Assembly (NCBI GenBank): GCA_007117035.1 | Contig: SKHG01000029.1 | Coordinates: 1 to 34,346 of the forward strand | Direction: 5' to 3' | Source of the DNA: Candidatus Campbelliibacteriota bacterium | GTDB taxonomy: Bacteria; Patescibacteriota; Minisyncoccia; Phycocordibacterales; CSBR16-193 | DNA: 34,346 bases | Shown here: piece by piece, positions 942-9,296 of the stretch | Layout of the letters: each line of letters opens with the position of its first letter | Position numbering within the stretch: the stretch's first letter is position 1 | Translations under genes and position numbers: made by a program | Notes under the pieces: generated by a model | Told to the model about the DNA's origin: nothing | Databases searched by the model: none | The model's input: only the letters and a program-made list of their open reading frames with translations

Positions 942-1628
942 ATGAATGAACAAAACACTACGGAAGTGAGTACTTTTATGGAAGCACTGGAGAAGTCTTT
1001 CGTGGAGGTTGGTACGCAGATTTCCGCTATCTTGCCCCAAATATTATTAGCTTTACTGGTCTTTATAATTGGTTTGATTGTTGCTCCCGTTCTTGGCAAT
1101 ATTGCTAGGAAGTTGGTAGCTATGGCTCAGATTGATAAACTTTCAGACCGAGTTGGTCTTTCAGAGACCTTACGAAATATTGGTTTCTCTTTTTCTTTTT
1201 CCAAGGTTATTGGAATTTTAGTTAAATGGTTCTTTATTATTGTCTTTCTTCTGGCCACAGTTGAGATATTGGGTTGGACAACTTTAACTGGTTTGATCTA
1301 TGACATTGTGTTGTATATTCCAAATGTAATTGTTGCGGTTATTATAATTGCTTTTGGTTTGATCGCTGGTAGTTTGGTTGAACAGTTAATTCTTAAAAAG
1401 ATTGAAGTAACAAAAGTACCAATCAAAAGTCCACAGATTCTTGGTAAGATTGCTCGTTGGGGAATAGTTGTGTTTGCTTCTCTAGCAGCTCTTTCACAGT
1501 TGCAGGTGGCTCAAGAATTGGTCCAAATTTTGTTTGCTGGTACTGTACTAGCTCTAGCTCTAGCTTTTGGTTTAGGAGGTCGTGAAAAAGCTGCTAAGCT
1601 TTTGGACAACCTAGACGGTTCTAACTAA
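942..1628 (+). CDS. CmpX/MscS-like small membrane channel protein
   Basis: A 228-aa integral membrane protein with hydrophobic segments around residues 31-53, 88-110, 122-147, 170-185 and 190-212. The C-terminal segment has the small-residue pattern LALALAFGLGGREKA (about 203-217), typical of the conserved TM-helix repeat family related to MscS pore helices (CmpX-like). A full MscS beta domain is absent, so ion conduction is inferred from family resemblance only. It has its own extended -10 promoter and a terminator directly downstream, so it appears monocistronic. A role in osmotic or membrane-tension response is likely, and mscL lies 4.7 kb away. Confidence 0.75.
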   Translation: MNEQNTTEVSTFMEALEKSFVEVGTQISAILPQILLALLVFIIGLIVAPVLGNIARKLVAMAQIDKLSDRVGLSETLRNIGFSFSFSKVIGILVKWFFIIVFLLATVEILGWTTLTGLIYDIVLYIPNVIVAVIIIAFGLIAGSLVEQLILKKIEVTKVPIKSPQILGKIARWGIVVFASLAALSQLQVAQELVQILFAGTVLALALAFGLGGREKAAKLLDNLDGSN

Positions 1629-1725: not shown

Positions 1726-2718
1726 TTAGAAAATAAAATAATTGGAGATATTTGTCGGCAAATACGCTAAAAATAAAATAGCTAGAACAAAAGCGATTAA
1801 AGCTGACAGATAAACATACTTCAAGGTTGCTTTGAGTTCGGATTCGTTGTAGTTAATTTTATTTCCTCCAACAAAAGGAATCTCTATCTGGCTACCTTCA
1901 AATGTAAAACACGGTCCACCTAATTTTATATCTCTCGCACCAGCATAAGTTGTTATAGGTATGCCACCGTTTGGTGAAGGACCTAACTGACTATCTCTGT
2001 ACCAAGCAATAACAGAACCTCGAACACTATCTCCTAGAATAAGTGCAATAAAAATAAGTATGAGGCCAGTTATTCTGGCAGGGACGTAATTTAATATGTC
2101 ATCCATTCGAGCAGAAGCCCAACCAAAATCTACGTATTTTAAATTACGGTACCCAACCATTGAGTCAAGAGTGTTTACTGTCTTGTAAAACACCATCAAG
2201 ACGGGTCCACCTAAGGTGTAGTAAAAGATTGGAGCAACTATTCCGTCAGAAATATTTTCAGTTGCAGTTTCTATTACAGCTCGGATAACCCCTGTTTTAT
2301 TTTCTTTGGATAGGTCGCGACTAACCATACCTTGAGCTCTTATTTTTGCTTTGGATAGGTTTCCGGATTTTATAAATTTTAATACAGAATATATTTCATG
2401 GGTCAGTGAGCCGACAGCCAAGAGGGAATAAACCAAATAGATTGTAAATATGTATAACAATATTTGGCTATGTAGATAAAAAATATTTAGAATAAAGACT
2501 GTGATTCCTGTCCACAAAACCACTTGCAGTATTAAAAAAACAACACCAGCTATTTTTAGATGACTTACAAAAAGTAATCTAGTATATTTTTCCAAAACAA
2601 TAACAGAGTATCCAATTGCCTGAACTGGATGGTATAGCCATCTAGGATCTCTAAATAACAGGTCTAGCAAAAAACCTGCTACTAGTATGATGTCTATAAG
2701 ATAAGTTGTTTCAAACAT
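1726..2718 (-). CDS. cbiB: adenosylcobinamide-phosphate synthase CbiB/CobD
   Basis: A 330-aa polytopic membrane enzyme that amidates adenosylcobyric acid with aminopropanol or its phosphate to give adenosylcobinamide (phosphate). Family signatures are in order: DLLFRDPRWLYHPVQAIG (19-36), TATENISDG (151-159), the VNTLDSMVGY stretch (181-190), PSPNGG (248-252) and LGGP (267-269). Hydrophobic helices lie near residues 55-80, 85-105, 214-230 and 303-322. Length is normal for CbiB. It is transcribed away from the cobalamin riboswitch-cbiZ unit, sharing the roughly 240-bp intergenic region. A corrinoid enzyme is unusual in this type of reduced genome. No other cobalamin synthesis or uptake gene is visible in the window, which points to salvage rather than full synthesis. 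Confidence 0.92.
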   Translation of the reverse strand: MFETTYLIDIILVAGFLLDLLFRDPRWLYHPVQAIGYSVIVLEKYTRLLFVSHLKIAGVVFLILQVVLWTGITVFILNIFYLHSQILLYIFTIYLVYSLLAVGSLTHEIYSVLKFIKSGNLSKAKIRAQGMVSRDLSKENKTGVIRAVIETATENISDGIVAPIFYYTLGGPVLMVFYKTVNTLDSMVGYRNLKYVDFGWASARMDDILNYVPARITGLILIFIALILGDSVRGSVIAWYRDSQLGPSPNGGIPITTYAGARDIKLGGPCFTFEGSQIEIPFVGGNKINYNESELKATLKYVYLSALIAFVLAILFLAYLPTNISNYFIF

Positions 2719-8627: not shown

Positions 8628-8658
8628 TTACCCCTATTAAACACAGAAAGTGTAAAAC

Positions 8659-8686
8659 TTGACATTTATTTTAATAGATGTATTAT
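8659..8686 (+). promoter_or_regulatory. strong promoter of the structured RNA/tRNA unit
   Basis: TTGACA (8659-8664) and TATTAT (8681-8686) with a 16-nt spacer; a TTATAT reading at 8683 gives 18 nt. Start is expected near 8691-8694. Confidence 0.75.
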
Positions 8687-8690
8687 ATTC

Positions 8691-8920
8691 GGAGCATTGT
8701 TTACTAATCCGCAGTAAACACACAGGCGTTGATGTGTTTAATTAGTATATAACCGTACAATGTTAGAGTCGTGAAGGTATAGCAAGTCCTTCGTCTTCGT
8801 ATATTTCCTTAATTTTTAAAGGAAAATAAGGAAAACCCTAGCGAAGTAACTCCCCTCGTTATCTTCTAGCGTTCCAAATATCGTGAACAGGAAGAGAGAG
8901 GGTGCTTGGTTTTGTTCCTC
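8691..8920 (+). ncRNA. unidentified structured RNA upstream of the tRNA
   Basis: No open reading frame of note occupies this 230-nt stretch, yet it follows a strong promoter and is full of complementary segments. GTTTACT/AGTAAAC (8699-8705/8713-8719), an alternative AAACACA/TGTGTTT (8716-8722/8733-8739), a closing CATT/AATG, GAAGG/CCTTC (8773-8777/8788-8792), CTTCG/CGAAG (8795-8799/8842-8846) enclosing TTTCCTT/AAGGAAA (8804-8810/8819-8825), and GAAGTAAC/GTTA-CTTC (8843-8850/8858-8866). I do not recognise RNase P RNA, tmRNA, SRP RNA or a T-box; their conserved blocks are missing. It may be a free small RNA or the leader of the tRNA transcript. Confidence 0.5.
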
Positions 8921-8921
8921 A

Positions 8922-8992
8922 TAACTCGTAGTTCAATAGGTAGAACACTCATCTCAGGATGAAAGATTCGGGTTCAATTCCCGACGAGTTAG
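8922..8992 (+). tRNA. tRNA gene with 6-nt anticodon loop, probably tRNA-Trp by context
   Basis: A clean cloverleaf: acceptor TAACTCG/CGAGTTA (8922-8928/8985-8991, 7 bp), D arm GTTC-AATAGGTA-GAAC, T arm TCGGG-TTCAATT-CCCGA (8968-8984), discriminator G at 8992 and no encoded CCA. The anticodon stem CTCAT/ATGAA (8948-8952/8959-8963) pairs at four of five positions and leaves a loop of only six bases, CTCAGG, instead of seven. Tryptophan is suggested by G73, by the position upstream of secE-nusG-rplK where tRNA-Trp commonly lies, and because inserting one C gives CTCCAGG with anticodon CCA. Read literally, the bases after U33 are CAG. It could be a real variant, a pseudogene or a sequencing error. 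Confidence 0.7.
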
Positions 8993-8996
8993 CTCC

Positions 8997-9034
8997 CCAC
9001 CCAATGTTTTGTCTAAAACATTGGGTGGTTTTTT
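8997..9034 (+). terminator. strong intrinsic terminator after the tRNA
   Basis: CCACCCAATGTTTT (8997-9010) and AAAACATTGGGTGG (9015-9028) form a perfect 14-bp stem with loop GTCT and a T-run at 9029-9034. Confidence 0.93.
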
Positions 9035-9035
9035 G

Positions 9036-9098
9036 TTGACAACTTTATTTAAAAGGAGTAATGTAATGAAATAAGAGAGCCCCGGGAAGGGGTTTTTT
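9036..9098 (+). promoter_or_regulatory. secE leader: promoter-like box, mini-ORF and attenuator-like hairpin
   Basis: TTGACA (9036-9041) follows the terminator; the best -10 at a 17-nt spacing is only TAATGT (9059-9064). AAAAGGAG (9051-9058) precedes ATGTAA (a start followed at once by a stop, 9061-9066) and ATGAAATAA (9066-9074). A hairpin follows: CCCC/GGGG (9080-9083/9089-9092), extendable by A-U and G-U pairs, with a T-run (9093-9098), 12 nt before the secE ATG. The arrangement resembles an attenuator, but the order of promoter and mini-ORF is uncertain. Confidence 0.4.
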
Positions 9099-9110
9099 AA
9101 TAAAAAAATT

Positions 9111-9296
9111 ATGAATAGATTAAAAAAATATCTAAAGGCTACCAAAGGGGAGATGGAGCATGTTAGTTGGCCTTCTCGTAAGCAGGCTATCATCTTTACT
9201 CTACTTGTCATTGCTGTTTCTATAGTAGCAGCACTCTTTTTGGGATTTTTTGACTTCATTTTTTCTGAAGTGATAGTTGAAAATATTTTTCTTTAA
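9111..9296 (+). CDS. secE: preprotein translocase subunit SecE
   Basis: A 61-aa single-span SecE. It has the conserved cytoplasmic helix ending in HVSWPSRKQ (17-25), where WPS is the family hallmark, and one transmembrane helix at about 26-48. It clamps SecY in the protein export channel. It is first in the secE-nusG-rplK run, with 13 nt to nusG. No Shine-Dalgarno site precedes the ATG; a hairpin with a T-run lies just upstream. Confidence 0.95.
   Translation: MNRLKKYLKATKGEMEHVSWPSRKQAIIFTLLVIAVSIVAALFLGFFDFIFSEVIVENIFL

Follow-up and report, generated by a model that had tools for sequence, protein, structure and literature searches.

The locus and its features

The window, that is, the whole stretch of DNA analyzed here, comprises 34,346 nucleotides of contig SKHG01000029.1 (assembly GCA_007117035.1) from a Candidatus Campbelliibacteriota bacterium. 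It is contig C40 of the source genome (G000), which has a size of 0.81 Mb in 81 contigs and an estimated contamination of 3.54%. Genome size, introns in the 23S rRNA gene and the relatives point to membership of the candidate phyla radiation (Patescibacteria). A tRNA-shaped element has been identified upstream of the secE leader in this window. The features of the region are as follows:

8659-8686 (+): promoter-like site of the sigma-70 type (TTGACA-16-TATTAT), 11 of 12 consensus positions
8691-8921 (+): non-coding leader of about 230 nt between the promoter-like site and the tRNA fold, with predicted hairpins
8691-8695 (+): GGAGC, which may form the 5' side of a closing helix (minimum-energy and centroid folds of 8690-9036)
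8922-8992 (+): tRNA-shaped element whose acceptor, D and T stems are complete, with U1-A72, G73 and a four-base variable region
8953-8958 (+): six-base anticodon loop CTCAGG, which further pairing can reduce to a UCAG tetraloop
8992-8996 (+): GCTCC, which takes in the discriminator G73 and may form the 3' side of that helix (same folds)
8997-9034 (+): intrinsic terminator directly after the element, 14-bp stem followed by T6
9036-9098: secE leader, with the hairpin AGCCCC-GGGAA-GGGGTT-TTTT at 9078-9098

The element reads TAACTCG-TA-GTTC-AATAGGTA-GAAC-A-CTCAT-CTCAGG-ATGAA-AGAT-TCGGG-TTCAATT-CCCGA-CGAGTTA-G on the forward strand. The Rfam tRNA model (RF00005) is covered in full with 54.4 bits (gathering score 29), which identifies a cloverleaf fold and ranks 31st among the 34 tRNA matches of the genome. 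ARAGORN reports a single tRNA at 8922-8993 with two bases, "(ca)", in place of a determined anticodon. The two programs agree on the tRNA fold, and the six-base loop and the G73 discriminator described in the initial annotation are real. The regularity claimed there for the other arms holds for the acceptor (7/7 pairs), D (4/4) and T (5/5) stems but not for the anticodon stem, in which a C27-A43 mismatch leaves four pairs as drawn. In the minimum-energy fold computed with ViennaRNA, C32 pairs with G37, giving the stem UCAUC/GAUGA and the four-base loop UCAG. Positions 74-76 do not encode CCA. A decoding adaptor has a seven-base loop with a three-base anticodon; with its loop of six bases, the element probably does not read codons.

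With a promoter-like site some 235 bases before it and a terminator immediately after it, the element is predicted from the sequence to belong to a longer transcript. Promoter-like site, leader, tRNA fold and terminator would make up an apparent transcription unit with the element in its 3' part. Since shuffled versions of the region yield approximately 2.4 sites scoring at least 9/12, only the 11/12 score of the promoter-like site is notable. Folding of 8690-9036 gives a z-score of -6.96, which is probably owed largely to the tRNA fold and the terminator; the leader by itself gives -2.83. The closing helix is suggestive only, because about 1-2% of random 11-mers would be expected to allow a 5-bp helix like GGAGC/GCTCC. 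The leader matched no Rfam family. A BLAST search of 8640-9110 against 60 relatives returned only scraps of the promoter and secE leader and short matches at chance level, and neither the tRNA nor the whole unit matched any phage or plasmid searched.

At its start, the secE-nusG operon itself has a promoter-like site; about 1-23 bases further on come a small G+C hairpin and a run of T. This hairpin and T run were found in 27 of 29 leaders examined (L032-L060), with varied stem sequences, and are likely a conserved device for early pausing or attenuation ahead of secE-nusG. A tiny ATG-AAA-TAA frame lies upstream of the hairpin in the window.

Identity of the element

The initial annotation assigned the element to tRNA-Trp on the basis of G73 and of its context, a tRNA-Trp before secE-nusG. 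The assignment fails on both sequence and context. The loop CTCAGG does not contain the anticodon CCA, the nearest canonical tRNAs are mostly tRNA-Arg, and no tRNA lies within 1.5 kb of nusG in any of 29 relatives, to the extent that their contigs cover the region. The further tRNA-Trp that the annotation called for does exist: a regular tRNA-Trp(CCA) with a seven-base loop is encoded at G000:C80:9283.

Trained on the element only, a covariance model scores the element itself at 107 bits; the best score elsewhere among 397 genomes of the order is 59 bits. The five new best matches inspected in that search are tRNA-Arg, as are most of the top relatives in a smaller search. An ortholog of the element is therefore absent from the 397 genomes sampled. 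A20 and C35 are known identity bases of arginine tRNAs, and the element has neither. Its D loop and anticodon loop are AATAGGTA and CTCAGG, compared with AATGGATA and CTCCTAA in tRNA-Arg(CCU), respectively. From the missing identity bases alone, the element is predicted not to be charged.

Other RNA families were also considered. No match to tmRNA (RF00023) or RNase P RNA (RF00010) was found at the element, and both readings were rejected because these genes sit elsewhere in the genome, the tmRNA gene at C66:17445 and a candidate RNase P RNA gene at G000:C1:21689 (98.4 bits, slightly below the 100-bit cut-off). Matches to the Rfam families SpF41, Plastid-ycf2 and RUF1 lie below the cut-off, over the tRNA or the terminator, and are attributed to chance or to the shared tRNA shape. 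A sequence pattern derived from the element retrieved only unrelated tRNAs or tRNA-like matches from viral contigs and 84,980 genomes. The pattern search also turned up a six-base-loop tRNA with CTCAGG in a Bacteroidales genome. Class I tRNAs with the anticodon CAG and a short variable loop occur in scattered bacteria (Granulosicoccaceae, Gemmataceae and Microtetraspora). The loci of these tRNAs and of the Bacteroidales tRNA are L116 (~5034), L118 (~1033), L121 (~4837) and L117 (~1311).

tRNA-shaped elements in 23S-5S spacers

tRNA genes were surveyed in four genomes of the family. All other tRNA folds with six-base loops lie between the 23S and 5S rRNA genes, three in G001 and two in G003; one of those in G001 surfaces only at a relaxed threshold. 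The corresponding spacer on contig C24 of the source genome contains one low-scoring tRNA fold, for which a seven-base loop was called in a strained register. In the ARAGORN set, an abnormal loop length was found in 4 of 5 spacer elements versus 1 of 137 tRNA genes elsewhere (Fisher p 1.5e-6, a value that treats the genomes as independent, G001 and G003 being of one genus). The single exception among the 137 is the element at 8922-8992; the other 136 have seven-base loops. A spacer element adjoining 5S is common to G001 and G003 and differs in its loop (CTTGTT versus ATTATT).

The same arrangement extends through the order. A tRNA fold was found in the 23S-5S spacer of 18 of the 50 genomes examined, and in 10 of these 18 the anticodon arm is abnormal while the other stems are intact. 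Several of the other spacer folds resemble ordinary tRNAs. The abnormal arms and the positions of the elements are as follows:

Six-base loop: G001, G003, G017, G021, G034
Eight-base loop: G011, G023
Expanded arm: G028, G029, G054
L207 (G001:C11), 2008-2294 (-): spacer tRNA-shaped elements
L206 (G003:C30), 9031-9211 (-): spacer tRNA-shaped elements
L202 (G000:C24), 1220-1293 (-): spacer tRNA-shaped element
L209, L211, L233, L236, L244, L249, L252, L257: further spacer elements (across all the loci listed, most have abnormal anticodon arms with the other stems intact)

When 22 spacer elements were aligned to the cloverleaf, at least 6 of 7 acceptor positions were paired, and the D stem (4/4) and T stem (5/5) were each complete in 21, counts that lean towards pairing because the sequences were fitted to the model. 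The sequences are varied, and the anticodon arms vary in length and pairing. The spacer elements are a stronger and more general finding than the element at 8922-8992, and suggest that the tRNA shape marks cut sites of longer RNAs in these spacers. A literature search, mainly of openly available journal papers, found no account of anticodon loops of six bases or of tRNA-like spacer elements in the phylum.

Two different 23S-5S regions occur in the small source genome, on contigs C23 and C24 (L214 and L208). C24 has the same neighbor genes as G003 and carries the spacer tRNA fold; the C23 spacer has no tRNA. Either a second operon or contamination, given the estimate for this assembly, would account for the pair. 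Homing-endonuclease-like frames are present within 23S rRNA introns of the family (L208, 9970-10488 (-); L207, 2813-3451 (-)).

Proposed role and alternative explanations

The best of the explanations weighed, to which slightly less than an even chance is given, is that 8922-8992 is a non-decoding tRNA-shaped module for processing or end protection, located in the 3' part of a non-coding RNA of about 340 nt (~8691-9034). This RNA would be transcribed separately. RNase P would cut at 8921/8922, and RNase Z, perhaps with the CCA enzyme, would act after 8992. The cut would set the 3' end of the upstream RNA of about 230 nt, or the tRNA shape would shield that RNA; by analogy, the leader may function as the product so released or protected. 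It is proposed that the tRNA body was kept because tRNA-handling enzymes recognize it, and that the anticodon loop, released from the ribosome, would have lost its seventh base.

Intact tRNA bodies with free anticodon arms are expected of RNAs that RNase P, RNase Z and the CCA enzyme recognize and the ribosome does not. The complete acceptor, D and T stems beside an abnormal loop, together with the promoter-like site and the strong terminator, were counted in favor of such a module, as was the affinity to the Arg class of a sequence that has neither Arg identity base. The same relaxation of the anticodon arm in spacer elements of the family and the order also favors it, a parallel that holds by analogy because the element lies outside an rRNA operon. 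The absence of an ortholog of the element and its leader, the element being found in one genome alone, was counted against the module, and so was the missing CCA, unlike in the spacer elements of G001 and G003. In the modeled folds, moreover, the closing helix would take in G73 and hide the 3' end.

The initial annotation had offered altered decoding or a pseudogene. Ordinary decoding is indeed unlikely, but retention of the tRNA fold for a non-decoding role was omitted, and this third option is favored because of the spacer elements in the same family. A decaying, functionless gene, probably a tRNA-Arg-like copy, either old or acquired, in which the loop has lost a base, is nonetheless a serious rival, if a less probable one. 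The occurrence of the element in one genome of the 397, its closeness to tRNA-Arg in a genome already provided with Arg tRNAs (UCG, UCU, GCG and CCU), the C27-A43 mismatch and the loss of A20 and C35 are all consistent with decay. Decay would, however, have spared every acceptor, D and T pair in a sequence far from the tRNAs of the genome (best matches of partial identity), and would have left the promoter-like and terminator-like flanks intact. It also does not account for the non-random placement of the other abnormal-loop tRNA folds of the family.

It is improbable that an assembly or base-calling error at 8953-8958 conceals a seven-base loop and hence an ordinary, if rare, tRNA. A single base would suffice, and the assembly is metagenome-like, with many contigs and some contamination; however, the site is devoid of long homopolymers, and the four family genomes hold no second abnormal loop outside the spacers. 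An added base gives no clear identity, and CCA in particular conflicts with a body resembling tRNA-Arg and with the presence of a normal tRNA-Trp elsewhere. Still less probable is a larger structured RNA closed by GGAGC/GCTCC, in which the tRNA fold would be an integral domain and no cleavage signal. Base pairing is possible between the 5' end of the predicted transcript and the five bases that start at G73, a match with a chance of about 1-2%, but the helix amounts to five pairs, comparative support is absent and the fold of the leader alone is weak.

It is very improbable that the element is a functional tRNA that decodes in an altered way, such as by reading CUG (C32 U33 C34 A35 G36) or shifting frame: counted from U33 the loop offers CAG, and neither tRNA-Leu(UAG) nor tRNA-Leu(CAG) was detected in the assembly, but a six-base loop is ill-suited to decoding. 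LeuRS normally requires A73 and a long variable arm, and the G73 and four-base variable region of the element argue against charging by this enzyme. Reassignment of CUG was judged unlikely. CTA codons occupy Leu positions of NusG and L11 that are invariant in 29 relatives; a tRNA-Leu(UAG) must therefore exist, outside the assembly or interrupted. tRNA-Asn and tRNA-Leu(CAA) were likewise not found in the source genome by RF00005 or ARAGORN, though their codons are used, and assembly gaps or intron-bearing tRNA genes are offered as the explanation for all of these missing tRNAs.

Significance

A broader proposal, held to be less likely than not, is that these bacteria with reduced genomes generally use non-decoding tRNA folds as processing punctuation, in 23S-5S spacers and, in the source genome, also to form the 3' end of a previously undescribed non-coding RNA of about 230 nt. 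Bacteria would then possess an equivalent of mitochondrial t-elements, which arose when selection on the anticodon arm was lifted. If this is true, the tRNA annotation of reduced bacterial genomes includes tRNA folds outside decoding, and inferences of tRNA sets and genetic codes are affected. It would also provide a simple RNA-processing route for bacteria with few ribosome-biogenesis factors (PMC12641178).

Comparison with known systems

The element shares with tRNA-Arg of the order (anticodons CCU, CCG, GCG and UCU) the GTAGTTCAAT D arm, TAGAAC, the GGTTC T arm and a four-base variable region, often AGAT. It differs from them in having U1-A72 and G73 and in lacking A20, C35, a seven-base loop and an Arg anticodon. 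G73 and a loop beginning with CTC are common to the element and tRNA-Trp, whereas the CCA anticodon is absent from the element, its loop has six bases and its variable region four. Like tmRNA, the unit is longer than a tRNA, has a tRNA-like part and may pair its 5' and 3' ends; however, the element forms a full cloverleaf that includes an acceptor stem of its own.

The 23S-5S spacer elements of the order have the same complete acceptor, D and T stems and abnormal anticodon arms, including six-base loops. They are located in rRNA operons and, in G001 and G003, encode CCA, neither of which applies to the element. Several carry the CGGGGTG acceptor typical of tRNA-Pro, whereas the element is Arg-like.

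The t-elements of plant mitochondria, the experimentally tested precedent for the proposed module, are tRNA-like sequences at transcript ends that are cleaved by RNase P and RNase Z and CCA-tailed without aminoacylation (PMC11658184). As in these, a tRNA-derived fold without an encoded CCA stands beside another RNA, its anticodon loop is free to diverge, and cleavage by RNase P and RNase Z is presumed. The element, for which cleavage and lack of charging are predictions, differs in being bacterial and in adjoining a putative non-coding RNA that has a promoter-like site and a terminator of its own.
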